Shown piece after piece: positions 15,257-63,667 of a DNA stretch of 64,000 nucleotides. The notes under the pieces are model-generated. The model was not told the DNA's origin. It saw nothing but the letters and a program-made list of their open reading frames with translations, and ran no database searches. This stretch comes from Antedon mediterranea (lineage: Eukaryota > Echinodermata > Crinoidea > Comatulida > Antedonidae): assembly GCF_964355755.1 (NCBI RefSeq), contig NC_092675.1:377001-441000 (forward strand), given 5' to 3'. Each line of letters opens with the position of its first letter. Within the stretch, counting starts at the first letter, position 1. The translations under genes and the position numbers were made by a program.

Positions 15257-15370
15257 TAGTTTCACATCTGGTTCCAGTATAGAAGCTTGGACATGTACAT
15301 GTGTAAGATGTACCAAAATCATTACAAGCTCCACCATTAAGACATGGAGAACTGTCACATGCACCAATTC
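15257..15370 (-). CDS. Gene A EGF exon 9 (last one seen)
   Basis: [24 protein letters not shown]. Donor GTAAGT is intact, so at least one further exon is expected to the left. None is recognisable in 14.7-15.2 kb. Confidence 0.88.
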
Positions 15371-18300
15371 CTGCAAAAATAGGTTGATTTTATTACAGTA
15401 ATTCTATAGATATTATAACTGAAGTCATTTTTTTTTTATGATATTAATATTAATTTAGATAGACAATATTTATTTCAAGACATAAACAATCAATAATGGT
15501 CATCTTGTAGAAAGTGTTTTAATTACTTTAATATTACATTTTTTAAGTATTTATTTTGTAGACTTACCAGTTTCACATGTGGTTCCAGTATAGAGGGTTG
15601 GACATGTACATGAGTAAGATGTACCAAAATCATTACAAGTACCACCATTAAAACATGGAGAACTGTCACATGGACCAATTCCTGAAAAAAATGGGTTGAT
15701 TTAATTAGAGTAGATAGTTCTATAGATATTATAACTAAAGAGATATTGTTTTTTTTTTATGATATTAATATTAATTTAGATAGACAATATTTATTCCAAG
15801 ACATAAACAATCGATAATGGTCATCTTGTAGAAAGTGTTTTAATTACTTTAATATTACATTTTTCTAATATTTATTTTGTAGACTTACCAGTTTCACATG
15901 TGGTTCCAGTATAGAAGCTTGGACATGTACATGTGTAAGATGTACCAAAATCAATACAAACTCCACCATTAAGACATGGAGAACTGTCACATGGACCAAT
16001 TCCTGCAAAAATGGGTTGATTTAATTACAGTAGATAGTTCTATAGATATTATAACTAAAGAGATATTGTTTTTTTTTTATGATATTAATATTAATTTAGA
16101 TAGACAATATTTATTCCAAGACATAAACAATCAATAATGGTCATCATGTAGAAAATGTTTTAATTACTTTAATATTACATTTTTCTAATATTTATTTAGC
16201 AGACTTACTAGTTTCACATGTGGTTCCAGTATAGAAGCTTGGACATGTACATGTGTAAGCTGTACCAAAATCAATACAAACTCCACCATTAAGACATGGA
16301 GAACTGTCACATGGACCAATTCCTGAAAAAAGGAGTAATTTTATTACAGTAGATAGTTCTATAGATATTATAACTAAAGAGATATTGTTTTTTTTTAATG
16401 ATATTAATATTAATTTAGATAGACAATATTTATTTCAAGACATAGAACTTGTAGAAAGTGTTTAATTACTTTAATATTACATTTTTCTAATATTTATTTT
16501 GTAGACTTACTAGTTTCACATCTGGTTCCAGTATAGAAGCTTGGACATGTACATGTGTAAGCTGTACCAAAATCAATACAAACTCCACCATTAAGACATG
16601 GAGAACTGTCACATGGACCAATTCCTGAAAAAAGGAGTAATTTTATTACAGTAGATAGTTCTATAGATATTATAACTAAAGAGATATTGTTTTTTTTAAT
16701 GATATTAATATTAATTTAGATAGACAATATTTATTCCAAGACATAAACAATCAATAATGGTCATCTTGTAGAAAGTGTTTTAATTACTTTAATATTACAT
16801 TTTTCTAATATTTTTTTTGTAGACTTACTAGTTTCACATCTGGTTCCAGTATAGAAGCTTGGACATGTACATGTGTAAGATGTACCAAAATCAATACAAA
16901 CTCCACCATTAAGACATGGAGAACTGTCACATGGACCAATTCCTGAAAAAAGGAGTAATTTTATTACAGTAGATAGTTCTATAGATATTATAACTAAAGA
17001 GATATTGTTTTTTTTCTATGATATTAATATTAATTTAGATAGACAATATTTATTCCAAGACATAAACAATCAATAATGGTCATCATGTAGAAAGTGTTTT
17101 AATTACTTTAATATTACATTTTTCTAATATTTATTTAGCAGACTTACTAGTTTCACATGTGGTTCCAGTATAGAAGCTTGGACATGTACATGTGTAAGCT
17201 GTACCAAAATCAATACAAACTCCACCATTAAGACATGGAGAACTGTCACATGGACCAATTCCTGCAAAAATGGGTTGATTTAATTACAGTAGTTCAAAAG
17301 ATCATAACTAAAGTTATATTGTTTTTTTTTTTTATGATATTAATATTAATTTAAATAGACATTATTTATTTCAAGACATAGAACTTGTAGAAAGTGTTTA
17401 ATTACTTTAATATTACATTTTTCTAATATTTATTTTGTAGACTTACCAGTTTCACATCTGGTTCCAGTATAGAGGCTTGGACATGTACAAAAGTAAGATG
17501 TACTAGAAATGTAACAAGTACCACCATTGACACATGGAGAACTGTTACATGGACTATGTACTGGAAGGAAAGGTTGATTTAATTACAGTAGTTCTAATAA
17601 AGTTGGCTCTGCCTTTTTAAATAGAGTAATCTCATCAATAGAGTCAACCTTTCAACTGAACTGAAATATTCTAGTATTTATTTTGTAGACTTACCAGTTT
17701 CACATCTGGTTCCAGTATAGAAGCTTGGACATGTACATGTGTAAGCTGTACCAAAATCATTACAAGTTCCACCATTAAGACATGGAGAACTAGCACATGG
17801 ACTATGTACTGGAAGGAAAGGTTGATTTAATTACTGTAGTACTACAAAGATGCTGTTGATATTAACATTCAATTAATAGACTACTGTATATTCATTTCGA
17901 ATTAAGAGACATTTACTTTAAAATAAAATGTAATGAAAACAAATATCGACGTTTCGTAACCATCATGAAACCATCCTCAAGAACAAATGAATAAAATTAA
18001 CAAAAAAAATACAAAGCACCAAATACTTAAACAATTAGTAACCATCTCTTAACAAACAAATGACTCAATCAAAGCAAAATAAATAACAAGAGGTATTTTG
18101 GTCTGAATTAAATTATTAATACATTAAATGTTGATTACCTTCATAAACTTGTACTTCACAAACAGTGATCTCATTAATATTAATGTTGTATAAAGAAACA
18201 TAACGTCCAACCAAATTGCAGTTTACCAAGTGATAACCATTGGTTGTTGAGGAAGGGATAGAGCCACATATGTTAGTGGAAGTAAAGAGTGAACTGGTAT

Positions 18301-21300
18301 CACTAACAACACGGACCTCAATGCCAGTAAGTGTTTCTGGAATAAAAAAAAACACAGTACTAATCTCAAATCCCTTAGTGATGACATTGCATGTAGACTA
18401 TAGATTTGCTAGCATAAAGAAATTTCACCTACATAATGTATGAATTTATTCAAAAAGTTAGTTCAATAAGGTATCTTATTTTATACCTCCCTGGTTCAAT
18501 ACTTACTTTTAATATGAAACATATTGAAAAACAATTATTGGGAAGTCCTAAAAATCTATAATGGATAGTGAATTGAGATTTCAAGAGTACAGTATCACCT
18601 TCAATTCCTTTAAATTACTTACGAGAAGAAAACAAACTGCATTATGGAAAACCTGCTTTTATATTTAGAATTTCAAATATTTTACAAAGAAATATAGCGT
18701 AGTACAGGACGTGAAAAAACTACTACGTATTGTTGTGTGTGGGTATGTTTCAGCATGGACATGTATACCACGATCTGAAAACATCCCTATTAGGGTTGAA
18801 GCTAAATTTGTTTTCAATAACTAATTATCTAACTCAACTTAATTAGTAAACAGGGTTTCATTAGGTGGTTAAAATCAGTACTGAAAGTATGAACCATCGA
18901 GTAAAAATGCGCGATTTACCAAATGTTGGCCTTACGTAATTTTTGTTTACACAACAGTGTACTATAGCTGCAAATTGAGTTGCTGGGAATACATTAACAT
19001 AGTCAATTCTGTATGTATCTCGTAAATCAACATACCAATGAGCAGATTGTCCTGCAGAAACTTTAATGATAAACACCATAAAAACATCAATATTGTAGAA
19101 AAAACACAATTGCTAGTAATGTAATATTTTTTATATTTTATTTATTTAGACTTAATAGAAATTAGAATAAGATAATAATTACATTTTTAAAATAAGAATT
19201 GATAAATTTTTATTTTAAAAATGTAATTACTGTACTACAGTATAAAAAAGTGTTGGTTGTATTTTTTATTCTATTTTTTAGTTATGCCAAGGTACAGTTA
19301 TAGGTAAGTTTACATTTTTGTTATGATTTCAAAATAATAAATATTTGGTTATGAAGCTTGGTATGAAAATCTCACCAACTGTACGTGAACATGAACCACT
19401 GTTGAAGTCCATATTGGTGTCACCATCAACAGCTAAACCAGCATCATATGATATACCATCAGAGGAATAAGTTGCGCTCTGGTATGCAGGCTTGCCATTT
19501 GACAACACAGCTGTAAAGAAACCAATTATTACAAAGGTGAGATTGTTTTCGACAACTAATTACACCTAACCACACATTGCTGCTGAGCTCGGAGTCAACT
19601 TGTAGTACCATTATTATTACTAACATCTATGTTGCAATTTAAAAAAAAAACCTTTGGTAATTTGTAAATTGTGCACCCAGTTTAAAAATTGAACAACTTT
19701 CAACACAAATAAGTAACGGCAAAGAATGTAAAATAATTTTAGATTATTCCAGCCACATATAATAAGATTGCAATGTAGTAATAAACTTCCTCCTCTTAAC
19801 GTGGCTGAAGTGAGCAGCGACGGGTTAGGCTTTCTAGCTCAATCACCAGCTAACTGCGGGTTAGGCTTTCTAGCTCAATCACCAGCTAACTGCGGGTTAG
19901 GCTTTGTAGCTCAATCACCAGCTAACTTAAGTATTGTAGTGAATCCTGAATAATAGTTGAGCCTCCAGGCGTGACACAAGGTCATGTGAGTTGTTAGAGG
20001 AGAGCAGTCTCTAACAAGACCAAGCGCCTGGTATAACAATTAAAAATTGTGATCTACATCCAAATCCTTTCAAAAGTTAAATGGAGTCTAAGTTTACTAA
20101 AAAAAATATTTGAGTCTCTCTCTCTTGCAACCTCTCTAACACACACAAAATCCCAGGCCTATACAAAGTATGAATACATGATTTTTGGAACATTAGTTAC
20201 CAGCCAAGCATAAAAAACTAAAATGACATTTCAGGACACCATGTAATAGTGATTAAAAAATGTACTGTAAAATGTTCATAAAAGATTGGCCTACATCCCT
20301 GTATGATTTTTAACAACATTTTTTTTTAATTTGTTGATTTCAAATGGAAAAAAGTCACAGTGTATAAGCATAGGCACACACCGTCTACGTGTGCCACCAC
20401 CGTTTTATTGCAGTGCAGTCATATGGAATGCCGATAATCTCTTCTCTGTGCGGTGATGTAATGCTCTTATACTGTTATATACAGTACTTTCATTTACCTT
20501 GATTTACCTTGATGTTGAGACTTATAAAGCCGTAGCTTGTGTGTCCCTCAGTAAAGTTCTATCATTCCATGCTACTATATATGTTTCAAGTTTCAATTTA
20601 TTTACCATTTAAATTTCTGAACATAAGAGATGAACAACTTATTTGGATGGATAACCGTAAGAGTGAAGCTCGTTTGCCGGTGTGTATGTGGCAAACTTGC
20701 AGAAAGAATCAGTCAAATGGGTCAAATACTCGAGACTTGAACTACTTTAGCTTAATGAATTTGATTCTAGACAACAGAGGATGGCATTTTATTCTAAACA
20801 TGGCATGCATGGTCTTATACTAATTCTTACTGTTCTTTTATACTCTTTCATTGCTTTCATCATCTCTTCCCTGGTATTATAAAATACTCATTCTTTAATG
20901 CTTAGCTCTTATTATTATATTACTCTTTTGTTATTATCTTATCAGACGTTCCAACCTAAAGAATGAAAAATCGGGAGAGTATACCATCACCAATGTTAAC
21001 ACTGTGAGAATGTCGCCACCAACGTTCAATAATGCGCGTTAATTAACTTTTATTATTGTAGACACGCTCGCATTGTATACAAATATAGTGTAGAGAAGCA
21101 ACGCATATACCATACTTATACAATCTCTACTATTAATATTGTTTGTTGTATCACTTACGGTGGTGGTACGTACAACGCCCTTTTTAATGAAATAATACTG
21201 AATTTTATGGAAACATGTTTGAAATTGGGAGATATATTTTAAATACGCCTTTTTTACGAAACGGAAGACATCTTCGATCGATGACAAACAATGCCGTGCA

Positions 21301-21640
21301 ACGAATAAATCGGGAGGGTTGGAAAATATTTCTTTTCCAAGTTCATGCTCTTTTAACAATAAATATAAAACGTAGCTAGGGGCGCTCCATACTATACTGA
21401 ACAGCTAGCGGCCGGACCGGAGTTGGGTAGCCTAGGCCCAACTAGGGCCTAGGCTAGGCTAGCCCTCTAACCCTAGCCTAGAGGCTAGGCCTAGCCTAGT
21501 CGCCGCCTAGCCTAGCTAGGCCCCTAGAAACTAGGCCTACTAGGCTAAGCCAACACGCACGGATACTCACTGTCTTGTTGGGATGAACTGATGAAACAAT
21601 AAGAAAGTAAGAAAAACAGTGTCAACCTTTCATAAAACAT
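15257..21640 (-). CDS. Gene A: secreted or cell-surface lectin-EGF protein (signal peptide, FTP, nine EGF), 3' end not found
   Basis: Exons joined on the minus strand: 21640-21571 (signal peptide), 19510-19376, 19051-18936 and 18336-18139 (fucolectin-like/F5-8C-type lectin), then nine 114-bp EGF exons from 17808 to 15257. FTP domains bind fucose or related glycans with calcium; EGF runs act as spacers and protein-binding rods. Nearly all junctions are phase 1. One is not: with the visible donor the second lectin exon ends in phase 0 and the next needs phase 1, consistent with a 1-bp loss at that junction. No TM or tail exon is found before the LINE at 14.7 kb, so the gene may be truncated by transposons or continue past them. 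Confidence 0.7.
15568..15681 (-). CDS. Gene A EGF exon 8
   Basis: [29 protein letters not shown]: five private replacements relative to its neighbours while the introns stay near-identical. Confidence 0.9.
15889..16002 (-). CDS. Gene A EGF exon 7
   Basis: [21 protein letters not shown]. Confidence 0.9.
16209..16322 (-). CDS. Gene A EGF exon 6
   Basis: [13 protein letters not shown] with TGTTC ending. The flanking intron has ttatttagcagac before the donor, shared with exon 3. Confidence 0.9.
16511..16624 (-). CDS. Gene A EGF exon 5
   Basis: [13 protein letters not shown] with TGTRC ending, a combination of the variants in exons 3 and 4. The downstream intron is shortened by loss of a segment containing the aacaatcaataatgg motif. 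Confidence 0.9.
16829..16942 (-). CDS. Gene A EGF exon 4
   Basis: As exon 3 with GTSYTC for GTAYTC and TGTRC for TGTTC. 319 bp from the previous exon start. Confidence 0.9.
17148..17261 (-). CDS. Gene A EGF exon 3
   Basis: [34 protein letters not shown]. Start of the run whose introns as well as exons are almost identical. Confidence 0.9.
17447..17560 (-). CDS. Gene A EGF exon 2
   Basis: [15 protein letters not shown] then [11 protein letters not shown]: the most divergent of the nine in the loop between Cys3 and Cys5. Confidence 0.88.
17695..17808 (-). CDS. Gene A EGF exon 1
   Basis: Begins [15 protein letters not shown] and ends TGTRCETG. Six Cys in EGF spacing, no calcium-binding DxDE start. 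Its upstream intron boundary (CTTCCAG) matches exon 2 but not exons 3-9. Confidence 0.88.
18139..18336 (-). CDS. Gene A FTP lectin exon 3
   Basis: [27 protein letters not shown] and [11 protein letters not shown] are the C-terminal half of a fucolectin-type domain (GxEVRVG, RYVTI, LTLCEVEVY). Acceptor TTATTCCAG, donor GTAATC, phase 1-1, 198 bp. Confidence 0.85.
18936..19051 (-). CDS. Gene A FTP lectin exon 2 (phase problem at 3' end)
   Basis: [18 protein letters not shown] matches the WxVDLG strand of the lectin; VHCCVNKNY carries the vicinal Cys pair typical of FTP domains. The donor TAC/GTAAGG leaves phase 0 (116 bp) whereas exon 3 needs one carried base. One extra G before GTAAGG would restore frame. 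Confidence 0.75.
19376..19510 (-). CDS. Gene A FTP lectin exon 1
   Basis: Phase 1-1, 135 bp. [22 protein letters not shown] and GSCSRTVG match the start of fucolectin/tachylectin-4/pentraxin-1-type domains (GKPAxQSSTY, AVDGN, SCTHT). Confidence 0.85.
19816..19927. repeat. 36-bp tandem repeat, three copies
   Basis: Unit begins gggttaggctttctagctca and ends ccagctaactgc. Copies 1 and 2 are identical over the unit; copy 3 has tttgtagc. Located in intron 1 of gene A. The 61-codon frame through it is repeat-driven. Confidence 0.8.
19950..21570. other. Gene A intron 1, remainder
   Basis: No recognisable gene. A 94-codon plus-strand frame (20539-20823) and a 106-codon minus-strand frame (21039-21359) have no motif I know, and neither is flanked by matching splice sites. 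The end nearest exon 1 is the CTAG-rich block. Confidence 0.4.
21405..21545. repeat. CTAG-rich low-complexity palindromic block
   Basis: Dense overlapping ctag/cctagg/ggcctag motifs (gcctaggctaggctagcc and relatives) in an otherwise AT-rich region, just downstream of gene A exon 1 on the minus strand. Confidence 0.6.
21571..21640 (-). CDS. Gene A exon 1: signal peptide
   Basis: ATG at 21640. [20 protein letters not shown] is a short n-region with a hydrophobic core and small residues at the cut site; it is followed by QQD and donor GTGAGT. The coding part is 70 bp and ends in phase 1, the same length and phase as exon 1 of gene C. Adding the next exon gives a lectin N-terminus in frame. Confidence 0.75.
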
Positions 21641-23607: not shown

Positions 23608-24261
23608 AGGCCAGTTCTGTATACGAAAAAAAGTATGATCATGTACATGTATGAACCAAACCCTTAATTAATAAACTGGATCAGCAAAATTTGTATATGG
23701 TATCAGTAGATTTATAAATTATTTAATGGTTTTACATTGTTTATTTTGTTTCTCTGTTACACAATTATATATGTTTGTAATTGTTAACATGCTCAAAAAT
23801 ACAAAGTTCAATTTTATCACCTTCACCTATGCAAATCTGATTATTTAAAATAAGTACTAAATGATTGAATTAAATTTGATCTTATAAAATGTGAACACAG
23901 CGTTAACCAACACCAATAAGCTGAGTATTTCAATAACTACAGGATTGAACATAAACAATGTGAAGAATATTAATTAGTATATCCACCACAACAAAGATTA
24001 AGTAAAAACTTATAGTACTGTACATCTTCTACCTCTGGTCTGACCAATTCTAAAGAAAAATGTAAATAAAATATTGTAAATAGTATCAAAAACAATAATC
24101 ATATTAATGGAATAATTGAAAATCAAAGATATATGAATGCAGCATCTATATATGCCATTTGATTGATTTATTTCCTATCATTGTGCCATGGTCATTTACC
24201 CAGCGGTAATTGTAGTGAAACTATCAATCAATTATCAATTAATTTGCTGTGTTCAGTAATG

Positions 24262-26051: not shown

Positions 26052-26265
26052 CTACTTTCTTAAGATGTCCAGATCTCCAAATCCAGAATTAACTCTCTCT
26101 TCTGAAAGAGGTGGTTGAACTGCAACACTGCCAGGGGTTGGTATCTGCAGAATGACTTTATACTCTTTAGCTGGTTTGTTTGTTTTTGGTATGATGACCT
26201 CTTCATAAGTAGCCATGTTCATCTCTATGGACTTATCCTTTTGTTTCATTTTTTAATAATGGAAT
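26052..26265 (-). CDS. Gene B cytoplasmic-tail exon, in-frame stop near its start
   Basis: Acceptor TATCTTATAG. In the phase required by the TM exon it reads FHY then TAA (26255-26253). Past the stop the frame aligns to the gene D tail: [10 protein letters not shown] (D has EMNMPTYYDI) and [10 protein letters not shown] (D has ARVNSGYQDL). So this is an ancestral tail silenced by a nonsense codon, or a recently shortened one. Confidence 0.7.
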
Positions 26266-29200
26266 CTATAAGATACATTTGCAAGAAATCAAAATTCCCT
26301 TTTTTAAATATGAAGTAGGAAATATTTGCTACTCCCAGCAAATCATGTATGAAAATCATGTATTGAATGACCATGGGTAATTAATCAAGAAATAATATAC
26401 AAATAATGAATGTTTATAAGATGGAGGGATGGTGAGAATATTCATTTGTTGAAGAGTTACTGCTTTTTTTTGTCTAAATTAGTACAGATCGTGTGCCATT
26501 TTGAATGTTATTTTAGTTTATATTATGCCAAGCCAAGCACAATAAGGTTGCACTATTGGATGCTTGCCGTGGGGATGTTGACCGGCCTGAGATTTTGTTT
26601 TTGGTTTCTTTTTTTGTAGCTGAAAGGTGGAACTAATACCAAACAGCACATGCAAATTGTAAAGATACACTCAGGTGTGTTATAAAAACCATTATACACC
26701 GGCCACTTTCAATTCACGGCATCTAATTCAGCCAGTCTATAAAGAGCCATGCCCTGGAACTATACCTCTTCGCTAAACTCATCCAATAACAATTGGATCT
26801 ATACACACGCACGATTGTGAGGCCTAGGTGTTGAATATAGCTGGTTTAACTTGTAGGTGACTTTGCGGTCAGTTAAAGTGTACAAATGTAATGTAAATGT
26901 ACAAACAGAGAACAGAGAAAAGAAGCTAAGCAGAATGGAGTGGAAATAATCAAGTGGATCTTGTATGCAGATGATCTTGTTTTATTCTCAAAATATGTTA
27001 AAGAATCACAGCAAATCCTGACCATTATTTGCGATACTTGCAGAAGATACGGGTTGAATGTTTCCCTGAAGAAAACAAAGATTCAGGTGTTTGGTGAACA
27101 ACATCTAGCAGAGAAAAGTTCCTTAGTGAACATAAATGGAGTGGATATTGAAAATGTAAGAGACTTTGTTTATTTGGGGCATACAATCACAAATAGAGAG
27201 GATGGCTGCTTCACTGACCATAGAACATCAAGTGCTGTAGGAAAGTTCCATGAATTAAAAGAAGTTTTAAGAAAGAAAGTTTTAGAGGCTCTTATATGGT
27301 ACACAAGCATGGTTTCCAAATGAGAATGAAATAAAGAAGTTGGAATCGTGTTGGCATAACATATTGAGACAGATGGTCAAGAGAGGGTTTGACAGGGCAA
27401 AGAATGAGGCTGACCAACCAGATGAGGCATCTACAGACTTGTATATTCCAACAAAAGGATATTTGAAGTTGTGGGAACATCTTCCTTGAGGGACTGCATA
27501 TACAGTCAGTATATCCGATACGTTGGTCATATCTGTAGAGGACCGAATACATCAATTACAAAAAAGATGCTGTTTGCTGTTCCAACAAGACGGTACTATC
27601 GTGATCCGTGGATTAAAATCTCTCGTATTTTAAGTATGGAAATCAGGCAAGCCAAAGCCATTACACAATCAAAGAAAATTCTTAACGAACACCTTAGTAG
27701 GCTATTTGGTGCTGAATAGGTTTTCGACTCCAGTTCTACGACGTAGAAGAGGAGGATCCCATATGTATGTTTGTATGTAAAGTATGAAGAAACAAAACAA
27801 ATTATGGGAATGGGAATATTTATCGGATAGCTGGAAGAGACAAATTCTCAAATGCAGGCCGCTTGATGATGTTTATGTATGATTTGTAATATTTTATATC
27901 CAATTACTGCAACATTCACTATGTTTCAGTTTTGCCATGTGGCTTTTTGTAACAAAAAAAAAGATTTAGAGGTGGAAATGGAGCAGTAATATAACTAGTA
28001 TATTAGATTTCAACCAGAATAGAATCTTTTAATTATATCCACCAAATAAATGTAAATCAATACCTGTAATAGAAGACACATGCTGACAATAAAACCAAAA
28101 GGATGATAACAAGCCCAATTATTACTGCCATCAGGTACGGTGGTTCAACTAAAAGAACATTGTTATGGTCATGTTTACAACTGAGGTACATAACATACAA
28201 TTTAAGTTGTTGACAAAAAAAATAATGGTGAATTACAACTGATTTTTATGTTACTTGTTTTGAGGTAATCTGTAAATACTGTAAATGCACTAGCTTTGCT
28301 TGTTTGTACCCTCAGCATTCAGTGTACATGCATGGTCCTCACACATTTCTTATAAAACTTGCTCATCTGCTATTTAAGGTTTCATATTTAAAAAATAATG
28401 TCCCTATTCTTTAAATGGACAATCAGAGTATGTTCAGACTCATGGCGTTAAGGTGGCATTATGTAAGCGGCGTACATACTTTTGTGTCTGAACTAGGCCG
28501 TTAGGGAGCTGCTACGCCATGCCAGTGGCGTAAGAACCCTAGCAGGAGAGTTAGATTTAATAATGCTAATCCAGTGATGCATCAGTGATTTTAACCTTAA
28601 CGAATGAAAAGACACGACCACAATTAGCAGGCCAACAGCATACATGTACAGCGAAATAGCTAAACGTCAAACTATCAGGTTTTCAATTTTAAAGAACAGT
28701 ACAGTTGACGTCATATATTTTCATAAATTAAATACACTAATCAGATAATTGTCCGTGTAATTATTTTGAATTACTGTAGAATGCAAATCTGCAAGTAGTT
28801 AAGTAGTAAGAAGAAATCAGTATATTTTGAAGGTAACATTATAAATAAAAATTTAAAAAAAACAACTTTACAATGTGAACTGCCATGCGTTTGTCATGAT
28901 TGTATGCATAGTTCTACCTGGTTAGACATAATGAAAAAAAAAATCTGAAACTTTAAAAAAAAATGATTGATCATTTTTCTGTTCAATAGAACCATAGACC
29001 TGAATGGCATGTGATGTGTAATTAAACCAATCAAATGAAAAAGATACACTCCCAGTTGAGTTTTATTGTAGGCTATAATAAAAGATGCTTACCATCTTCA
29101 CAATGTGTGCCAGAATATCCTGCAGAACAAGTACAAGTGAAGCTGTTTGGGTTATCTGTACATTCACCATTGTTCTGACATGGGTTACTTGAACATTCAT

Positions 29201-32200
29201 CAATATCTATAGTTACAGCAAAGAAAAGACAACAAAATTGCCATAATACATTTTATCAATATTTGACATAGAGGTCATGTGCTTAAATAGTCACACAGGT
29301 CATTTGAAGTAAATTAAATTTAGACAACAAATGTAGGCATGTAATTATAATACTGTACCTGCATATGTTTCCTAATAAACTAAATATATAGTTTCTATTT
29401 GTTTATTTTATATTATTATCTTTGTTACTATAGTAGCAATGTATCCATATGATGGATTTAAACCATAAACATATTCTTGTTTGCAAGAAATGTGATAAAA
29501 TTAAGGCTTTTTTAAGGGGCTCGATGGATATTACAGGCTGCCACCAAATGATGGTGAATTACACTACACACAAGTTATTTTATTATTACTTTTCAGGTAA
29601 TCTGTAAATACCCTCTAAATTAAGTGTAAATACATAGTTATATCACACTTACAAAACTCACTCATTTATTACATTTGGTCTAATAATATGCTATCCACTA
29701 TCCCCAGAAAGTCCCTACTAGCCCGAGATGGAAAATCAGACAGACTATTGCCATTTTGAATGCTTAAAAAAAACGGGCAAGGCCAAAACAGCTGCTGGTT
29801 TTGACAAAAAAAACTCTCAAACTTTTTACAAAAACATTTATCACTTTTCAATTCAATAAAACTAATGACGGGAGGTGTAGGGTGCCCCCGTAGATTTGAG
29901 ATGTTTTGTGTGGATGAGGAGAACGCACCGGAGGGGAGATGAACACAATGAATGGAGTTGAGTGAACGTTTCCGAGTAATTAGTGATGTGTATATGTTTT
30001 TCTATGTTTTTTATTGTGTTCACATACCCTTCAAAATGGGTCACTTCATTTTTTCATTTCATTTTATTGTTCCACATAAAATATGACAAGACAAAGAAAA
30101 AAAAGAATCTAAAAAACCTGGGTAGTTATTTGTTTATGTGAGGAGACTCAAGTAAGCCAAAAAAGGCTTTAAGGCTGAGTTCCAAAATACATCACATAGT
30201 ACATGGTAACGTATATTACTTGTTATATAACACCTATATAAATTCCTGTCATTTGATTGGACGAATGTGGATCACATGGCGTGCAATAGTACGCACTATT
30301 CAACGATCGTTAAATAGTACTTTTTGAAACATTTTTGTTTGTTATTTAGATGTTATATAAAACAAATAATGAATGTTTTGTATTCGTGTAATGGTACAAA
30401 TAATGGCACTTGGTGAATGATGAAAGGTTATATCAACTCGGCTTTGCCTCGTTGATATAACCTTTCATCATTCACCTCGTGCCATTATTTGTACCATTGC
30501 ACTCATAAACATTCATTATTTGTATATTAATTAATAATTCGATGTTTTAAGAGGTATAATACGATGGTTGGATGACAGTAGAATTCGAGTGTGAAGATGT
30601 TTACTGTAGTTTGAACTTACATCGGGTGTAAAGGATTTCATAGATTAAAGTAGATTTACTAGACAGAAAGTTTTGTTATTTTGTTTTCAATGTTATCAAC
30701 GGATCAAGATAATTGGAGTGTCACTGATATTGCATTTTTTTTTAGTTCAAAGACAAGGAATTATTGATACTGTTGTGTACTACTTATTAAACGGTTGCAA
30801 AATTTTATACTTAGTTGTATTTACTTTATTTGGATTCTATACGATCTGAAGGGGCTACATATTGATAACTCCACTGCCCACATTACGACACTAATACTGA
30901 ATGGTAATTAACTAATCAAAAAGAAAAGATACACTCACTTGAGTTTTATTGTAGGCTAATAAAAGATGCTTACCAATTTCACATTTTTTGCCAGAATATC
31001 CTGCAGAACAATTTGTACAAGTGAAGCTGTTTGGGTTATCTGTACATTCACCATTGTTCTGACATGGGTTACTTGAACATTCATCAATATCTATAGTTAC
31101 AGCACAGAAAGAACAACAAAATTGCCATAATACATTTTATCAATATTTGAAATATACGAGTACTGCTCACTGAAAATATTTGGAAAAAAGGCGTTTGTCA
31201 TTATTACAAGAGGGGTTCATTACTTAACTGTTTAGCAACTACCATCGTGTTTAATTGGAACTCGCGGTACAGTTTATTACAGCGTTCAAAATATTGTTGA
31301 ACAAAAGGTCATGGAGCTATATTATTACGTAATCCTTGATGTGCCTGTTTATTAGAACAATTAAAGACTATAGCTAACAGGTGTTAACAGTTTGTAACAA
31401 TTTTACAGACGGTATAGAAAAGACTTTGTTTTATGTAGCCTAAAAAGGAAAGTTAAAATGTAAACCTTTTTTCTCTTTATGCAATCAAATTTAATACGTA
31501 CTATGCAAATTATTTTATGAAATTATCAGTATTCGATTTATTCACAGTATATCATTTTTATTGAATGAATAGAAATACCCAGTAATCATTATGTTTTAAA
31601 GTAGTTATGTACTGTACATATAATAAGTCAAATGTGTAGGCGTGGTAACTCCCAAAAATTACACATTTATTATAGATAGTGGATTATTTGATATACGATA
31701 TTTAATATCAAACTGCACTATTAAAATGATTTGTTTTTTGTTTTTTTTGTCTTGTGTGGGTTCATCCCACTTTTATTATCATACTCTGTTATTATATTTT
31801 TTAAACATATTTTTTCCTCTCGTTTATATCTTACAATGTTAAAAGTAATTGTAATAAAAACATTGCATTCATTATTTTACATTTAAAAAAAGTAATTTAA
31901 ATATATAAAATAATTAACAAAATGCCTAATAAAAGACGATAAAAATTGATTAAAATTGATTGACAGCTGTAATTATTCTATAAAGCTCGTGTTCGTGTTC
32001 ATGATTTGTTTATTTATGAAACTTGTTTGGAATATAGCCCTATTCGATATGATTTCTTGTATTACTTTATGTATTTTTCAATCTGAAATAAAAGAATGAA
32101 TGAATAGCAACATTTTCACCATATTTATATACTTACCAATTTCACAATTTGTGCCAGAATATCCTGGAGTACAAGTACAAATGAAGCTGTTTGGGTTATC

Positions 32201-35200
32201 TGTACATTCACCATTGTTCTGACATGGGGTACTTGAACATTCATCAATATCTATATTTATCATGAAAACTGATAGTTAAAACCCCTACTATCTGAGCCAC
32301 AGCACGCTCAGGTTTGGGCGCACGCGTAACTTTCTGTAAAACAAGCCATTTTTTTTCCATAGATAGCGCATGACATAAATTTAAACTTTGCTAAGTTTCA
32401 ATTTAAATTGTTGTATGGTTATCGACCATGTTAAATACCAGAAATTCATAAAATCGCGCGTAACTTACGCTGCGTGACTCTAAAGTCATATAACAAAGTT
32501 TTTTGCACATCTACAGCTTCAGGTCAATCTTTTAAAAAGTTATACAATCTTATGTTAACCAATCTTATTGGTTATCCGCCAAGTGCGGATAACCAATTAA
32601 TAAAATGGCAAGGACACGACGTTATAATATTCTGAATTAAACCATATATTCTGCTTACCATTTTCACATTTAGTGCCAGAATATCCTGGAGAACAAGTAC
32701 AAGTGAAGCTGTTTGGGTTATCTGTACATTCACCATTGTTCTGACATGGGTTACTTGAACATTCATCAATATCTATAGTCAACAAAACTTACAGGTGTGT
32801 AAAAATGCAAAATTGCCAAAGTAGGTGGGCCTTCATTTGTTTATTTATTTACCAATATTTGTCACCAGCAATGTACCCATCTACGATGGATTAACCATAC
32901 TATATAATCTTGTGCATACAGAATAGTAGTTCACCCCTTTGATTAATTGCATAAATTATATTCTCCATAACATAATAACATACTGTAGATTTTTTATTTT
33001 TATATTAAATTTAGTGTAGTTTGATTATTAGGCCTACTGTACCTGTATCACAATTTGTTCCATCATATCCATCTGCACACAAACAAAAGTAAGAAACAGT
33101 TGTGCCTATAGGTATACATGTTCCTCCATTTTGACATGGGTTTGAATTACATGGAGTCACTGTCCGACAAAGTAAGAATTGAATATGTAATAGATGAAAT
33201 CAAGGAGTAAAATGTATGTAAAACCATACTACACAGTACATCAAAAATGTCATTCAATGTGTATTTCTCTCAGTTTATAGTGTAAAAGGAGTATTAGATT
33301 TACAAGACTCCATGACACAATTGTAAATGATCACTTCTATCAATCAATTATGCAGTTTTAAAGTTAAGATTTTATACATAGAGGACATTAAAGCAAAATG
33401 TCCACCTTCTCATGGTCTAAAACAAACCATATATAATGCTTACCATTTTCACATTTAGTGCCAGAATATCCTGGAGAACAAGTACAAGTGAAGCTGTTCA
33501 AGTTATCTGTACATTCACCATTGTTCTCACATGGGTTACTTGAACATTCATCAATATCTATATTTAACATGAAAACTAATTAGTTAAAACCCCTACTACT
33601 GTATCTGAGCCACAGCACGCTCAGGTTTGGGCGCGCGCGTAACTTTCTGTAAAACAAGCCATTTTTTTTCCATAGATAGCGCATGACATAAATTTAAACT
33701 TTGCTAAGTTTCAATTTAAATTGTTGTATGGTTATCGACCATGTTAAATACCAGAAATTCATAAAATCGCGCGTAACTTACGCTGCAAGACTCTAAAGTC
33801 ATATAACGAAGTTTTTTGCACATCTACAGCTTCAGGTCAATCTTTTAAAAAGTTATACAATCTTATGTTAACCAATCTTATTGGTTATCTGCCAAGTGCG
33901 GATAACCAATTAATAAAATGGCAAGGACACAACGTTATAATATTCTGAAATAAGCCATATATTCTGCTTACCATTTTCACATTTAGTGCCAGAATATCCT
34001 GGAGAACAAGTACAAGTGAAGCTGTTTGGGTTATCTGTACATTCACCATTGTTCTGACATGGGTTACTTGAACATTCATCAATATCTATAGTCAACAAAA
34101 CTTACAGGTGTGTAAAAATGCAAATTGCCAAAGTAGGTGGGCCTTCATTTGTTTATTTATTTACCAATATTTGTCACCAGCAATGTACCCATCTACGATG
34201 GATTAACCATACTATATAATCTTGTGCATACAGAATAGTAGTTCACCCCTTTGATTAATTGCATAAATTATATTCTCCATAACATAATAACATACTGTAG
34301 ATTTTTTATTTTTATATTAAATTTAGTGTAGTTTGATTATTAGGCCTACTGTACCTGTATCACAATTTGTTCCATCATATCCATCTGCACACAAACAAAA
34401 GTAAGAAACAGTTGTGCCTATAGGTATACATGTTCCTCCATTTTGACATGGGTTTGAATTACATGGAGTCACTGTCCGACAAATAAGAATTGAATATGTA
34501 ATAGATAAAATCAAGGAGTAAAATGTATGTAAAACCATACTACACAGTACATCAACATTTCATTCAATGTGTATTTCGCTCAGTTTATAGTGTAAAAGGA
34601 GTATTAGATTTACAAGACTCCATGACACAATTGTAAATGATCACTTTTATACATAGAGAACATGTACTGTACATTAAAGCAAAATGTCCACCTTCTCATG
34701 GTCTAAAACAAACCATATTTTCAGCTTACCATTTTCACATGTTATGCCTGAATATCCTGGATAACATGTACAAGTGAAGCTGTTCAAGTTATCTGTACAA
34801 TCACCATTGTTCTCACATGGGTTACTTGAACATTCATCAATATCTATATTCAACAAAAGTTACAGGTGTTATAGCACAGAAAAGTACAAAGACAAAATTT
34901 CTACAGTAGGCCTACATTTTTTACTTGACCACCTGAGCCATACAAAATCAAAGGTATAGGCTGGTCACTGTCTGGGGTGGTGCAAAAATTGTACTCCCTA
35001 ACCCCTCTACACCATTGTCTTCAGCCATATAACAGGGGTTGCAAAGATAAAGTGCTATATAGGTTGCTATCTATAAATATATAATCTCCAGGACCTAAAC
35101 TCCTTCATGGTTAGGGCTGAGCTGCAAGGGTCCCCAGAAATGGCACTTATAATTTCAATTATAAAACAAAATATAATAACCATCTCCAGCATCTCAGCCA

Positions 35201-40038: not shown

Positions 40039-40219
40039 TTAGTTGTTCAGAATCTCATAATCAGAATCTACTATTTGTGATGGCGCATGTGACATGATAG
40101 TATAGACACTGCGATTGCTTGGGACAACATTTTCATAACCGATAGTCTTCATATTATTGTTTGTTGCTGCCATCTCTGTGGAATTATCGATTACTTTGTT
40201 CTTCTTGGAATAATAGAAC
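40039..40219 (-). CDS. Gene C cytoplasmic tail and stop
   Basis: FYYSKKNKVIDNSTEM is shared in style with gene D; then TIGYENVV, RSVYTIM and DSDYEILNN to TAA. Two sites fit [ILVS]xYxx[ILV] (IGYENV, SDYEIL). Confidence 0.83.
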
Positions 40220-46200: not shown

Positions 46201-49200
46201 CATCCCAGGTCACTGTTACTCGGTCTGAGGTTGTAATTCTAATCACGTCATCAGGACATACAACATTTGGGTTTTCATATGGATTGTTATTGTCTGAAAT
46301 GAGAAGAAAATATCTATGTATGTCCAGATTGACAAAGTTGATAGCGTAAGTACAAATTTTAACTGTCTGAACCAGTCAACTAGAAAGTTAAAATGAATAT
46401 GCTATGAAACTGACTGGAATTTAGAATAAAGAGTTTCAAGGTCCAATAAATGGTTTTCAATATTAACTAAACATTGTAATTATGAACACACTTACGATTG
46501 ACTGTAATTTTAAAGGCACAGATTCCTATATTACCAGCCCTGTCTGTACAAATAACATCAGTTGAACCAAGCCGAAATGATGAACCAGAAGGTGGTATGC
46601 AATCAGCTGAGAGATCAGGATCACCATAATCCTGGACAGAGGCAATCCAGGTCACAGTAGTTTGGTCTGTGTGGCTATTTCTAACAATGTTACTTGGGCA
46701 GGTCACTGTAGGGTTACCAGTATCTATAAGCATATATTACATAAATTATAATTTTTAATTATCTGATTTCTTATTTATAATGATTAGTTTATAAAACATA
46801 TTGTAGGCCTATTGTCTTTAGAGGGTTAGTAACAACTTTCTTTGTAATACGTGAATATAAATTATTTCTGAGATCACTTTGTCTTAACAATGTACTGTCT
46901 GTAATATAGGCACATTTGCTTTGACTCAAAATAACACTTATCATGATGATTGTTGTTGGGAATCTCCTAGCTGTACACAAAACCATCATCCCCACAATTG
47001 TTTATGACAATTATGCAGCAAGCAGTTGGCTATAGGTTAGATGGTACAACAAGCAGTAAAAACTGGTCATTTAGTGTCATTCAACAAAAACACACCTTTA
47101 ATACTCAAAATATAAACTGAGAATTTGTAAATATTACCAAGGACGGTAAGTGTAAATTGACAGCTTCCTGTATTACCAGCACTATCTGTAGCATTACAGG
47201 TAACATGTGTAACAGATCCACCATTAAATGATGAACCAGAAGGTGGAGTACAATTTGCTGACAGACCGGTATCAATATTGTCACTGACTGTGGGATCATT
47301 CCAAGTATACTGTCTAAACGAGCTTGAAGATGTAGATATGTCATTACGGCATACAACAATTGGCATCTCATTGTCTAAAAAGTAATTTTTATGTTAAAGA
47401 AAATAATATCTGTTTTTTAGTTGGAGGATCTCAGTACACAATGTTTCTGTATACTGTTATACTTAGCATCTATCTATAATTCCAATGGAAAATAATTAAA
47501 TGGATGTAGACTGTAAGAGCATGCTTCCATGCTACTTCCTATTGTACTGTATATTTTGTTGTTTTCTTTTAACCAGAAAGATTTTTGCAATCACCCTAGA
47601 TATCATACCTTCTAAAAGTAATTGTATGGTAAAAGTGCATTGACCAGTATTAGCATCACTGTCAGTTGCAGTACAAGTTACAGTTGTAGAGCCAACAGGA
47701 AAGTATGAACCAGATGATGAAGTACAAGTAGCAGTCAGGCCAGTGTCAACATCATCAACTACTGTTGGTGCATCCCAGGACACTCTTGATGACGATGTGC
47801 CTATAATGTCAATGTCACCAGGACAAGTCACAACTGGTATTAAAGTAGGAACTGCATTGTTAGAAAAAAGAACAAATAAGATCAGTAAACACCTTAAAAA
47901 TGATATAACATTCCATATGAACAGTGACCACATAAAGTTTGATTTTGTGACACACCTGTGACAACAAAATGTAACTCATCTTTAAGCTGGCAAAAGATGC
48001 AAATATCAAATTGGTTAGGCATAAAACACAAGATAATAACTTTATAATAATTGTACATTTGAATTAAATACAGCAAATAAGTAATTCTATCATTTTATAT
48101 ATATATATATACAAATCAGACTTTACTTCCGTAGACATAGACTTCACAAACAGTGATCGCATTACTCTTCTTTTGAAATAGAAAGACAAAACGTCCAATT
48201 ACATCTGGGTACCAACTGTAAGAAGTGCTTAAGTAATCAATTGATCCAAGTTGGTTACTAGCATCTAAAAAAAGAAAAGTTTAAAATGTATCATTCTCAG
48301 CAATTATTGGCATTTCGTTAGCACATACTAAATGGTTTTTCTTAACTACAGTAAAACATATTTACCTAGCATTTATGATTTAACAAAACAAATAAGATTG
48401 ATGTTGCTGTTTATTTGTCAAAAACACACAAAAAGTGACAATCAGTCATTTTATATTCTAAAGCATGTTGTAAAAAAAAAAGAATGAATAATAATAAATG
48501 AAATGTGAGTACATGACAGGTAATACTGTAATTTACCTTCATATCCATATGGTGTATATACATAAACACGTTCAATGATGTGGAGACTTCCTAAATCAAT
48601 ATACCAATATGGGTTCTGGTTCACTGAAACTTAATAACGGACGTACGTCAGTAAACTTCGGCTGACACAATCAGATATCTGATCATCTTCTAGTTTTCAG
48701 ATAATTATTAAGTTTTTTTATCTCACTTCAATTAAATAATCATATATATTTATTTATCTGGAGGACTAAACTTGGCTTAATGCATCCTCCTCACACAATT
48801 ATATTTATGAATTTGTGTTCTGTATATATTATAGTGTGAAACAATAAACTTGAAACTTGAAGTTTAAAATGTAATGTAGGATGTATGAATTTCTCATTTT
48901 TGGAAAGTTAAGAATACTGATAGCATTACTTACCAACTGTACGTGAACATGAACCTATGCTAAAGTCCTGATTACCATTACCATCAACCGCTAAACCAGC
49001 ATCATATGATATACCACCAGAGGAATAAGTTGCGCTCTGGTATGCAGGCTTGCCAGTTGACACATAGCCTTTTACAAATGCTGGAAGAATGCGTGTGAAA
49101 AAAATGAATAAAAAAAAAACAAAAATAAAAAACATGTGATTGTAGTCATCCATCAAGAATTATTCTGCTGCCCAGTTTATTTCAAACCATTCCACCAAAT

Positions 49201-50632
49201 GTATGTTAATAGTTTATTTGCGAACTTGCAACTAACCCTCCTTTCTCTCTCTTCAACCAATATTTTAGTACAAAAACACAACCAAAGCAAAGGTATAAAC
49301 TAAGGCATATACCAATGTAATTGGTTTCAGCTACATTTTTTAGACTTGTATTCTTATAGGACACCACAATGTAAAACAAAAGAAGGATCTGCAAGATAAT
49401 TGTCAAATTGTCTATAATATAGTCAGCCAATGGTAGTTTTTACTGTCGGATTTGTTGGCTTCCATTTCATCAATAAACATTAATGAGGTTTACTACTAGC
49501 TGGTGAACACTATACTTCTTTAAGTAATTTAAACATAAAACATACCATTTATACTTAAGTTTTATGTAGTCATGCTTATTTTCGGATGGGTGATAATCAA
49601 ATTCATATGTACCTGGATATTCACATCTGTCTCCTTTATATCCGGTTCGACAGGAACACCGATACGTATTGTTAGTATTAACATAACAGTTTCCATTATT
49701 TAGACAGGGATTAGATGAACATGGGCCTAAAGGAAAAAAATAACTTTAAGTTAGGCTAACACCAGTTATTGAATAATTAAAAGTTGTCTACTGTAAATAT
49801 AAATAGCTACTGTATTGATGGAATTTCTAAATTTAAACTTTAATTGGTAATATATAATAACATAATATAATCATAAACCACATCATTGAATTAAAATCAC
49901 TGAATTAATAATTTTTCCCAAAATGTCTTTAAACACAAAATTAGCACCAATAATCCCACTCAGGTGGCAAACTAGCCTTGTATCCATTAACTATCATTCT
50001 ATCAGTTATGATAGAACAAATAGAAATCAGTGCATACAACTGAAGGGGAAAGTAAAAATTATCTTGTTTTATCATCTTCCTTCCTCCATAGTTTTATAAA
50101 ACACTTCCTATAGAAGTACTGTATCAGAAAAACAATGATAAATCAGTCATTTATATACACTTTTGTTAAATTAACAATATTTTGACAGAATTTTCACAAA
50201 ACTGGCATTTATCTACAGCTCAAAATGGAAATATGGCTTATATCATACTAGGACCCTTTTGCAAACCATACAATTATACCAAAACAAACACAAACTAACA
50301 CATAGTTACAGGATACTTTCATTCATTCCTAAAGCCTGGTCTAAAGTATCTAACTTTATGTCACAAACAAAATTAATGTGCCTATATATGGACATGAAGA
50401 TGTCATATCACTACTATTTTTTGTTGTCAAACTAGTTTGATAGTGTAGACAGAGCTTAAAAGTACATGGAGACCCATCCAACCATCATCCATCCCTATTT
50501 ACAAATGATTTTAGACAAAAGTTAGTGTAATCTCTCTCTGTACCATCAATGCACATACTTACTCTGAGAAGAACAGATTTGACATTGCTTGAATAGAAGT
50601 ACCAACATCAGTGCTATGTACCTTTCATCCAT
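40039..50632 (-). CDS. Gene C: complete EGF-FTP-HYR6 transmembrane receptor-like gene
   Basis: Thirteen exons on the minus strand give an uninterrupted 2265-nt coding sequence (754 aa plus stop), with every phase matching. Domains by residue: signal peptide 1-23; EGF 24-61; fucolectin/F5-8C-like lectin 62-185; six HYR (hyalin repeat, Ig-like fold) modules 186-668; TM about 669-694; tail 695-754. HYR modules are adhesion modules known from echinoderm hyalin and related surface proteins. The tail has ITIM-like IGYENV and SDYEIL plus SVYTIM, which could recruit SH2 proteins if phosphorylated (inference). A Ty3/gypsy element sits in the intron between HYR5 and HYR6. Best-supported gene in the window. 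Confidence 0.85.
40770..40848 (-). CDS. Gene C transmembrane exon
   Basis: NYLMMALITILGIIILVIPA then LVFYYK: one membrane helix and stop-transfer. 79 bp, phase 1 to 2. Confidence 0.85.
41199..41453 (-). CDS. Gene C HYR6 (membrane-proximal)
   Basis: TVTCPDNIEV, VTWDDPSVSDNFDTGLPATC, AGSTDVTCNATDTAGNTGSC, then a short stalk ending DSAG at donor GTAAGA. 255 bp. Confidence 0.9.
41993..42166 (-). repeat. 3' LTR of the gene C gypsy element
   Basis: On the minus strand starts TGTCGTGTATTAAG and ends CATAACA (TG...CA), 174 bp. Confidence 0.9.
42456..45407 (-). CDS. pol: Gypsy pol polyprotein (RT, RNase H, integrase)
   Basis: 983 aa, uninterrupted. The start keeps only the end of a retropepsin (HSLLGRDWL). 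RT: FTKLDLAQAYNQM, FGITSAPAIWQ, YLDDILV. RNase H: VATDASGEGVGAVL, EREALAIVYA, LITDNKPLT. Integrase: zinc-binding H-x3-H...C-x2-C (HVGH, CDSC), then the DDE core (VDFAGPF, VSDNGPQF, NGQAERFVQ), and a C-terminal region ending KRHVDQI. A 17-residue near-duplicate (TKENCINDNVKSN) lies near the C-terminus. Antisense to nothing: it shares the strand of gene C, so it would be transcribed inside that intron. Confidence 0.93.
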   Translation of the reverse strand: MRESAGSSRTFTSFTGEIVKPLGKISVKVVYESQCHYLFMYVVANTKHSLLGRDWLNVIKLNWQECFHNNYVNKLECRDALKQLLDKHEGLFKEELGLLKHIKADVLLKGDAKPMISKAYRVPYALRSDVDTELDRLVNIGVLTPVTHSQWASGIVTVRKKDGSVRLCGNYKPTINPVLQSVAPPNINVDDILSNLAGGETFTKLDLAQAYNQMELSDESKKVLTIITEKGLFQQNRLVFGITSAPAIWQNAMNVILKDLPGVQVYLDDILVTGKDDQEHLGNLERVLVRLQDYGLRLKRGKCEFMKQSVEYLGHCVDKHGVHKSIDKIDHILQMPLPSDITTLRSYLGMVNYYRSFVPRLATILAPLTSMLEKGREFKWTELARNAWVKSKEMLRHSGFLVHYDPNLPLTVATDASGEGVGAVLSHMVNGKERPIKFASRSLNKTERNYPQLEREALAIVYACKKFYSYIYGRKFILITDNKPLTTIFGPKKGLPILAAERIQRWALYLSGFDYNIKFRNSQANANADCLSRLPVEGPPRHSEISVAHIGSREILPVTSAEIRNNTRKDVILSRVMRNELTIEGGCLLWGVRVIIPPKLRQQVLEELHVGHIGVVKMKGLARSHFWWPLLDAQIEETAKKCDSCQRIQNNPTIAPMHPWLPVSNPGERVHVDFAGPFEGLAYLIVVDAFSKWPEVFIMQSTTSHKTIGVLRTLFSRNGLPQVLVSDNGPQFTSGEFKSFMAMNGISHKLSAPYHPSTNGQAERFVQSLKQGLRAARNDSGDPQTKLDRFLLSYRNAEHSLTKETPAKLFMNRSIRTRLDILRPNINDSVRNNLHKAMHKRDRKLRLYETNDLVYVRNYIGQTKWVPGVVVNQEGPLNYKIDVGNKLVWKRHVDQIKDRGVNVDFENKEGEDMDTEYVDKRVEEILSRKTKENCINDNVKSNDAIEQTKENCINDNVKSNVATKPSVLRRSTRVRKAPDRFHY
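45426..45599 (-). repeat. 5' LTR of the gene C gypsy element
   Basis: Same 174 bp with one mismatch; followed on the minus strand by TTTGGCGACAAGGATGG, a TGGCGAC-type primer-binding site. Confidence 0.9.
45642..45878 (-). CDS. Gene C HYR5
   Basis: IVTCPFNMEE, VTWSDPSVTDNVDSGLSATC, IGSTDVACTAMDTDGKTGSC; donor GTATGTG lies 38 bp from the gypsy insertion site. Confidence 0.9.
46045..46293 (-). CDS. Gene C HYR4
   Basis: NVVCPDDVIR, VTWDDPSVTDNVDTGLSATC, IGSTDVTCFATDSVGNYGSC; 249 bp, phase 1-1. Confidence 0.9.
46496..46723 (-). CDS. Gene C HYR3
   Basis: PTVTCPSNIV, VTWIASVQDYGDPDLSADC, LGSTDVICTDRAGNIGICAF: shortened in the T-A-T-D turn. The most divergent of the six; 228 bp. Confidence 0.9.
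47138..47374 (-). CDS. Gene C HYR2
   Basis: IVVCRNDIS, YTWNDPTVSDNIDTGLSANC, then GGSVTHVTCNATDSAGNTG with one extra residue in the usual GSTxVTC turn. 237 bp. Confidence 0.9.
47609..47851 (-). CDS. Gene C HYR1
   Basis: VVTCPGDIDI, VSWDAPTVVDDVDTGLTATC, FPVGSTTVTCTATDSDANTG, CTFTIQ: full HYR with its four Cys. 243 bp, phase 1-1. Confidence 0.9.
48127..48264 (-). CDS. Gene C FTP lectin exon 3
   Basis: DVIGRFVFLFQ and AITVCEVYVYG match RYVTI and LTLCEVEVY of the family; the GxEVRVG strand is not recognisable. 138 bp, donor GTAAAG. Confidence 0.83.
48537..48623 (-). CDS. Gene C FTP lectin exon 2, short form
   Basis: NQNPYWYIDLGSLHIIERV then YVYTPYGYEG. 87 bp, 29-30 bp shorter than in gene A; it lacks the vicinal Cys pair region. 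Confidence 0.85.
48934..49080 (-). CDS. Gene C FTP lectin exon 1
   Basis: [35 protein letters not shown]: highly similar to the matching exon of gene A, including silent positions. 147 bp, phase 1-1. Confidence 0.88.
49613..49726 (-). CDS. Gene C EGF exon
   Basis: SPCSSNPCLNNGNC, NNTYRCSC, GYKGDRCEYPG: six Cys, phase 1-1, 114 bp. Precedes the lectin, whereas in gene A the EGFs follow it. Confidence 0.9.
50563..50632 (-). CDS. Gene C exon 1: signal peptide
   Basis: MDERYIALMLVLLFKQCQIC then SSQ, donor GTAAGT, 70 bp, phase 1. A TTTCAG just upstream (about 50,655) suggests a separate 5' UTR exon. A five-codon upstream frame starting at 50642 ends just inside the main start. Confidence 0.8.
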
Positions 50633-53143: not shown

Positions 53144-59215
<6,072 letters not shown>

Positions 59216-62837: not shown

Positions 62838-63285
62838 GCAATAGATGGAATCAGATGCATAACATAAGCAATGCTGTGGGTACAGTGTGGCTTGATCTCA
62901 ATAGAGTAAAAAGATGCATAACAGATGCATAACATAAGCAATGCTGTGGGTTACAGTGTGGTTTGATCTCAATAGAGTAAAAAGATGCATAACAGATACA
63001 TAACATAAGCAATGCTGTGGGTTAGGGTGTGGCTTGATCTCAATAGAGTTAAAGGAAAGAAAAATAATAGATGGAATCAGATGCATAACATAAGCAATGC
63101 TGTGGGTTACGGTGTGGCTTGATCTCAATAGAGTTAAAGGTGGAATCAGATGCATAACATAAGCAATGCTGTGGGTTACGGTGTGGCTTGATCTCAATAG
63201 AGTAAAAAGATGCATAACAGATGCATAACATAAGCAATGCTGTGGGTTATGGTGTGGCTTGATCTCAATAGAGTAAAAAGAAAGA
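62838..63285. repeat. About 70-bp tandem repeat, six copies
   Basis: Each copy has gcataacataagcaatgctg, a tgtggcttgatctcaa segment and atagagt. Copies sit near 62,858, 62,928, 63,000, 63,083, 63,152 and 63,223, separated by 70-83 bp. The minus-strand frames through it are repetitive and unlikely to be genes. Confidence 0.88.
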
Positions 63286-63451
63286 AAAATAAAAAGCACA
63301 AATGTTAATCAAAACCATACTGGTGCAAAGAAACAGCAACAGAAAGAAATTCTGAAAATAATGAGTTGATAAATTTATTCCAAAACTTGGTTAGCAATGT
63401 TTCTCTGCTTCTTCTTCATTTTTTGGTTATTGTAAGATATTTAATGGATCA

Positions 63452-63520
63452 ATTTTGTGTGTAAAGCGCTTTGAAACATTGTATAAGGCCTTATATAAGA
63501 CTATTATTATATTGTTTTAT
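63452..63520 (+). mobile_element. L2-like 3' tail
   Basis: gtaaagcgctttgaaacattg and aggccttatataagactatt: the canonical end of L2-type LINEs or SINEs. Confidence 0.45.
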
Positions 63521-63585
63521 TTAAATAATATTCAAGTTAGGTTAGCTGTGTTGTATATTTAAAAAATGAAGTACAAAAACAACAC

Positions 63586-63667
63586 CTGCAATAAAAGACC
63601 AAAACTGGAAACATCACCAAAATGATGACAACAAGAACAATTAGTATTGCTATCAGGTAATCTGGTA
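63586..63667 (-). CDS. Gene E transmembrane exon (gene continues off the right edge)
   Basis: VPDYLIAILIVLVVIILVMF then PVLVFYCR; acceptor TTCTGCAG, donor GTGTTG, 82 bp, phase 1 to 2, closely matching gene D. No cytoplasmic-tail exon is recognisable between here and gene D, where palindromes and tandem repeats occupy the spacer. Confidence 0.78.

Follow-up and report, generated by a model that had tools for sequence, protein, structure and literature searches.

Most of what is known about large echinoderm recognition families, including the TLR, NLR, SRCR and Sp185/333 families, comes from sea urchins, and crinoids form the sister lineage of the other echinoderms. The EGF-rich engulfment receptors Draper, CED-1 and MEGF10 cross the membrane once, carry YxxL/ITAM-like tails and contain an EMI domain and EGF repeats only. 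Hyalin/SVEP1-type proteins, which combine HYR and EGF repeats, are secreted or belong to the matrix, and F-type lectins such as eel AAA and bass FBP32 possess an FTP domain. The Alr receptors of Hydractinia bear Tyr-based motifs. The Alr family, with 41 genes (PMC11999971), is made up of clustered transmembrane recognition genes that have an Ig-like (V-set/I-set-like) ectodomain and whose role in allorecognition was shown genetically. The Sp185/333 (SpTransformer) genes of sea urchins form an echinoderm family with tight clusters, mosaic sequence and coding-exon repeats, for which gene conversion among both linked and unlinked members has been put forward (PMC3091723, PMC5103432).

A cluster of genes in the crinoid Antedon mediterranea resembles each of these systems in part. 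Like Sp185/333, it is a tightly clustered echinoderm family with mosaic sequence, repeats in its coding exons and proposed gene conversion among linked and unlinked copies; however, an Sp185/333 gene has two exons within less than 2 kb, an element pattern and no transmembrane (TM) segment (PMC3091723), whereas the present genes are multi-exonic, extend over several kb and encode a TM helix and a tail. The cluster shares with Alr the linkage of transmembrane genes, but Pfam recognizes only FTP, EGF, HYR and CUB modules in it. EGF repeats, a single membrane pass and ITAM-like tails are shared with Draper-type receptors, from which the genes differ by their FTP, HYR and CUB modules; the EMI domain had no Pfam match in the N-termini of genes A, C, F and G, those of B and D being incomplete. 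The FTP domain is homologous to that of F-type lectins, here lacking the fucose-binding residues and joined to a TM helix and tail, while the HYR and EGF repeats shared with Hyalin/SVEP1-type proteins are likewise attached to a TM helix and a probable signalling tail. The family evolves in the manner of Sp185/333 and has the anatomy of a paired-receptor or engulfment family, and is a member of neither. In agreement with the original prediction that this exact combination is not known from a described family, FTP/EGF/HYR/CUB modules followed by TM and tail were not found in the open literature searched, by which measure the architecture is provisionally new.

Organization of the cluster

The 64,000-nucleotide window (C6:377001-441000, C6 being chromosome 6) has a GC content of about one third outside its minisatellites and lies in the 354-Mb assembly GCF_964355755.1, in which a few small contigs accompany 11 large ones of 22-41 Mb. 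Five related gene units, A to E, are arranged head-to-tail on the minus strand, as had been predicted and as splice-aware exon scans, tblastn and Pfam confirm. Pfam matched HYR (E 1e-13 to 1e-14), CUB (3e-11), EGF and FTP/F5_8-C modules, although the split FTP exons of the window were missed by the Pfam FTP model and required spliced models. The predicted phase-1 exon structure holds for the ectodomain exons, which are phase 1-1, but not for the TM exon, which starts in phase 1 and ends in phase 2. The five-unit extent was likewise retained, with longer genes than first proposed: A begins at 21640, C at 50632, and the ectodomain of E reaches C6:474 kb. Coordinates without prefix are window positions, all on the minus strand.

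Gene A (15257..21640) encodes a signal peptide (21640-21571), an FTP domain in three exons (19510-19376, 19051-18920 and 18336-18139) and nine EGF exons (17808-15257), seven of which, introns included, form a 319-bp tandem array. One usual splice donor is lost in this gene, where a longer in-frame exon is possible, and neither TM nor tail was found in the 25 kb downstream, to 367 kb on C6. Gene B (26053..35753) consists of ten EGF exons (35753-29093), a TM exon (28148-28064) and a tail exon (26265-26053), with an in-frame TAA four codons past the TM exon (RFHY*). Gene C (40039..50632) runs from a signal peptide (50632-50563) through one EGF exon (49726-49613), three FTP exons (49080-48934, 48623-48537 and 48264-48127) and six HYR exons (47833-41199) to TM (40848-40770) and a tail (40219-40039) with two ITIM-like motifs. 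One of its introns harbours a Gypsy-type LTR element (41993..45602, minus strand; pol ORF 42459-45443) whose terminal repeats are 99% identical over 177 nt, and which is an insertion and not part of the gene.

Gene D (53144..59169) comprises two 5′ EGF exons (59169-59035 and 58873-58715), a CUB exon (58269-57889), a second EGF pair (57414-57298 and 56980-56858), a remnant of a first HYR (56748-56644), a further HYR exon (55709-55491), TM (54230-54149) and an ITAM-like tail (53375-53144). Signal-peptide exons were sought for B and D and not found. The only exon of gene E within the window is its TM exon (63588..63668); the gene reads as FTP-HYR7-TM, with HYR and FTP exons at C6:442.9-474.6 kb and LINE-like ORFs within it, and no tail was recognized when searched for. 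The FTP at 474 kb and the TM at 441 kb probably belong to one gene, as judged from the sequence on either side of the 467.5-472.9 kb interval. Hence three of the five genes (A, B and E) look incomplete.

The wider family

Searches of the genome with tail, TM and FTP1 sequences revealed further members at C6:127, 260, 277, 290 and 301 kb, a cluster on C9 (chromosome 9) at 7.56-7.72 Mb, and single loci on C1, C3, C8 and elsewhere on C9. Chromosome 6 contributes about ten genes between 0.12 and 0.48 Mb, and the whole family is estimated at about 15-20 genes. Those read further are gene F (C6:277-278 kb; SP-FTP-TM-tail, where SP is the signal peptide), gene G (290 kb; SP-FTP-HYR-EGF2-HYR2-TM-tail), gene H (301 kb; FTP-HYR6-TM-tail, with a stop in the 5′ part of its HYR1) and, read at full length on C9, gene X (SP-EGF-FTP-HYR8-TM-tail). 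The usual layout is SP-[EGF]-FTP-(HYR/EGF)n-TM-tail.

Heads, tails and a possible recognition role

The FTP domain matches F-type lectins (phmmer E 2.8e-19 to bass FBP32 and 4.2e-11 to eel lectin) and scores above the cut-off of Pfam PF22633 in A, F and G and just below it in C. Alignment to eel lectin did not reveal the fucose-binding motif (His...Arg-x-Asp-x4-Arg/Lys): the eel YHGSC, NRGD and GER positions correspond to LAGSC, YSVTQ and EEN in gene F, and other members have FPATQFA or YTPYGYE at the motif positions. Since the fucose-binding residues are lacking, "lectin" is here the name of a fold.

The tails have no relatives in Pfam or PDB. The ITAM pattern Yxx[L/I]-x(6-12)-Yxx[L/I] occurs in the tails of D, F and the C3, C6:127 kb and C8 members, which are of the [17 protein letters not shown]-type, and is absent from those of C, G, H, B, C1 and X. 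In these five tails, the conserved C-terminus [19 protein letters not shown] yields YxxL-x9-YxxL, whose nine-residue spacer slightly exceeds the canonical 6-8. A match arises in 1-2% of shuffles of each tail, and the tails, being related, amount to about one observation. In D and F the two tyrosine motifs read YQDL and YTDL. The ITIM-like motifs of the C tail, IGYENV and SDYEIL, are of a kind matched by chance in 10-24% of shuffles.

These features suggest, with about even confidence on our part, a lineage-specific, clustered family of single-pass surface receptors that evolves by duplication, head exchange and short conversion, and to which signalling and ligand-binding roles may be ascribed. 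Each receptor would consist of a signal peptide, a ligand-facing head, an HYR or EGF stalk, one TM helix and a short multi-tyrosine tail, the predicted head being F-type-lectin-like FTP in most members, EGF/CUB in D and EGF only in B. The heads may bind microbial or altered-self surfaces, and the tail tyrosines could be phosphorylated by Src-family kinases and recruit SH2 proteins, in which case the ITAM-like tails would activate, that of C with its ITIM-like motifs would inhibit, and B would be effectively tail-less. An innate recognition role is plausible from the clustering, the tyrosine-motif tails and the F-type-lectin-like heads. A crinoid family of this kind, with exon-limited conversion across chromosomes, would mean that paired-receptor-like signalling and conversion-driven repertoires had arisen on FTP/HYR scaffolds too.

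Echinoderm extracellular matrices commonly contain HYR, EGF and CUB proteins. The receptors described here might instead serve in adhesion, in the matrix or in gamete interaction and play no part in immunity, and the HYR expansion is indeed general in this genome, where a first look gave at least 1413 candidates. Clustered, partly degenerate and unequal copies, together with conversion and tyrosine-motif tails, are however more typical of recognition families, and we regard such a non-immune role as somewhat unlikely.

Proposed exchange of modules

The cluster was predicted to reuse its modules in different orders and to have undergone exon shuffling or conversion. The different orders are only partly borne out: a general order of FTP, then HYR/EGF, TM and tail prevails, and C and X share the same layout although they lie on different chromosomes. 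In a maximum-likelihood tree, the HYR1 exons of C, X, G and H group together (support 95/91), HYR3 of C and X joins E (97/87 and 94/89), and the last HYRs of G and H pair up (97/94). Hence some HYRs hold their position across genes and chromosomes, and free shuffling of these three is rejected by their positional orthology. FTP2 splits into C, E and C9 on one side and A, F, G, H and the 260-kb gene on the other (90/96).

The similarity of the first lectin exon in A and C, predicted as evidence of exchange, is real (89% DNA identity) but nothing special: an identity of about 70-90% is usual among FTP1 copies, and the introns flanking FTP1 in A match those of G and H and differ from those of C. 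The AU test (p 0.40) does not demand a special A/C conversion of FTP1, and this idea was abandoned for want of proof. Likewise, the predicted likeness of the D and E TM exons (90%) was found, but E is closer to F (96%), despite an FTP of the C/X type.

What stands of the exchange hypothesis is the synonymous homogenization of HYR cores, described below, and a probable exchange of heads. Genes D and F have TM, tail and 3′ flank in common (80-92%), D having EGF/CUB where F has FTP, and B has an EGF-only head on the common TM and tail. N-terminal blocks thus appear to have been exchanged or replaced on a common membrane-and-tail chassis in D and B, as supported by these comparisons. In the proposed scheme, the family would evolve by tandem duplication, by swaps of N-terminal blocks at phase-1 introns and by short ectopic gene conversion, the latter confined to exons because the neighbouring introns are not homologous.

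Homogenization of the HYR cores

At residues shared between HYR exons, of which 29 were compared, codon identity starts from 0.57 at the 5′ end, where pooled codon usage predicts 0.53, rises through 0.71, 0.77 and 0.87 to 0.93 in mid-exon (0.40-0.49 expected) and falls to 0.66-0.70 further 3′. The peak value compares with an expected 0.49 and is as high as 0.92 in pairs between C6 and C9. Correspondingly, pS along 23 core-sharing exons is 0.55, 0.22, 0.10, 0.30 and 0.43, the first value being the least certain because the N-terminal columns align poorly. pN tracks pS, with pN/pS of about 0.62 outside the innermost core and 1.32 within it, the bootstrap interval of the difference including zero. 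No comparable peak was seen in FTP1, FTP2, tail or EGF exons. The core of gene D (55540..55659, minus strand) served as genome query, and a core 21-mer has 28 exact and 24 one-mismatch matches genome-wide, nearly always within the family despite the at least 1413 HYR candidates of the genome, against none in the reversed control. Codon bias was ruled out as the cause, neighbouring Ser codons being fixed as TCT and TCA.

Age variation within the exon, combined with unlike flanking introns, indicates short homology-driven conversion between exons, also between chromosomes. The pattern fits a rewriting of HYR cores by short, exon-internal ectopic gene conversion, within C6 and between C6 and C9.

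Selection on the nucleotide sequence itself, for a splicing enhancer, RNA structure or translation, could also freeze such a core in a family that diverged by duplication alone. The near restriction of the 21-mer to the family would be compatible with this, and six otherwise divergent HYR exons still match the innermost core in part, with a codon identity of 0.70-0.81 within columns 33-46, so that nucleotide constraint may contribute. However, these six exons do not rise above background in columns 19-32 and 47-60, the peak lies mid-exon, away from splice sites, and pN drops in proportion to pS, which is predicted by age and not by silent-site constraint. As the full explanation, nucleotide constraint is therefore unlikely, and ectopic conversion is preferred. 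Low dS is seen in the TM exons of D, E, F and H as well (0-0.16 over few sites, against 0.16-0.46 in tails), dS being noisy in such short exons.

Selection and integrity of the genes

The dN/dS of tails is 0.26-0.32 for the D-F and D-H comparisons and 0.26-0.44 among D, F and H, and that of most FTP1 pairs about 0.3-1.6, all from small samples. The tails of D, F and H thus look to be under selection. This bears on the possibility that the locus is mostly a decaying, functionless array of gene fragments, as the missing TM and tail of A, the TAA in B, the unrecognized tail of E, the HYR1 remnant of D, the HYR1 stop of H and the Gypsy and LINE insertions would suggest. With C, F and G open from signal peptide to stop, D short only of a recognized signal-peptide exon, and tails that appear selected, general decay is quite improbable.

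A more far-reaching reading is a paired-receptor system, with ITAM-like, ITIM-like and tail-less members and exchangeable heads, in which the HYR repeats would be continually rewritten by sub-exonic conversion between two clusters, perhaps under diversifying selection at core columns 45, 46, 51 and 55. Such a germline, possibly somatic, repertoire generator is a long shot. An allorecognition locus is very improbable: clustered variable TM receptors with tyrosine motifs are broadly reminiscent of the Alr genes of Hydractinia (PMC11999971), but the Ig-like Alr ectodomain is absent and the crinoid host is solitary.

Genomic setting

A homeodomain search of the same assembly located a Hox cluster on C2 at 7.83-8.21 Mb, with 12 homeodomains that may be read as Hox1-8, 9/10 and 11/13a-c, the two most posterior lying face to face. 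Such a 12-gene cluster speaks against a sponge or cnidarian source and, with the GC content and the chromosome numbers of related groups, marks the genome as ambulacrarian and probably crinoid, in line with its origin from Antedon. A feather star genome with a GC content of 33.2% was reported to contain 10 ordered Hox genes and two posterior ones face to face, unlike hemichordates (PMC7351957). The two sequenced hemichordates have 1N = 23 (PMC11175523), and most echinoderms have 36-46 chromosomes in the diploid state (PMC3308324).

Repeats and a shared intron stretch around the receptor-like genes

Introns of genes H and E, two members of the receptor-like family on contig C6, share a stretch of 1-1.5 kb at 90-94% identity (C6:312565-314080 vs C6:441097-442537), which may either have been copied recently or belong to a repeat element. 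Two minisatellites lie beside the genes of the window. The first, with a unit of ~52 bp, is found downstream of the tail exon of gene B (24242-25621), while the second, with a unit of 69-71 bp, directly follows the transmembrane exon of gene E (62840-63292) and occupies the expected position of the gene E tail intron. Directly downstream of gene A, the expected place of its transmembrane and tail exons holds a Gypsy-type reverse transcriptase fragment (11203-12348, + strand) and a LINE-type endonuclease ORF (12838-14568, - strand). At the start of the window (239-10509, + strand), a 25-bp minisatellite (CTGGCCTGCTACTTACGCACGCAAC) forms four arrays nested within bigger tandem segments of 2.5-3.4 kb each, and the long ORFs of this region are repeat artefacts.

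Related modules and the Hox cluster elsewhere in the genome

A first-look search returned 1413 candidates genome-wide for the ectodomain module HYR. Further very large HYR clusters are located on contigs C1 (6.5-7.3, 14.3-14.4 and 39.0-39.7 Mb), C10 (11.87-11.89 Mb), C4 (29.47 Mb) and C3 (27.75 Mb). Contig C3 also carries, remote from the main family clusters, a tail exon with internally duplicated Tyr motifs in a single 160-aa open frame (C3:38055420-38055773).

The Hox cluster (C2:7827797-8206132) is compact, ordered and of the ambulacrarian type, with 12 genes, the two most posterior of which stand face to face, only ~50-70 kb from Hox11/13a.
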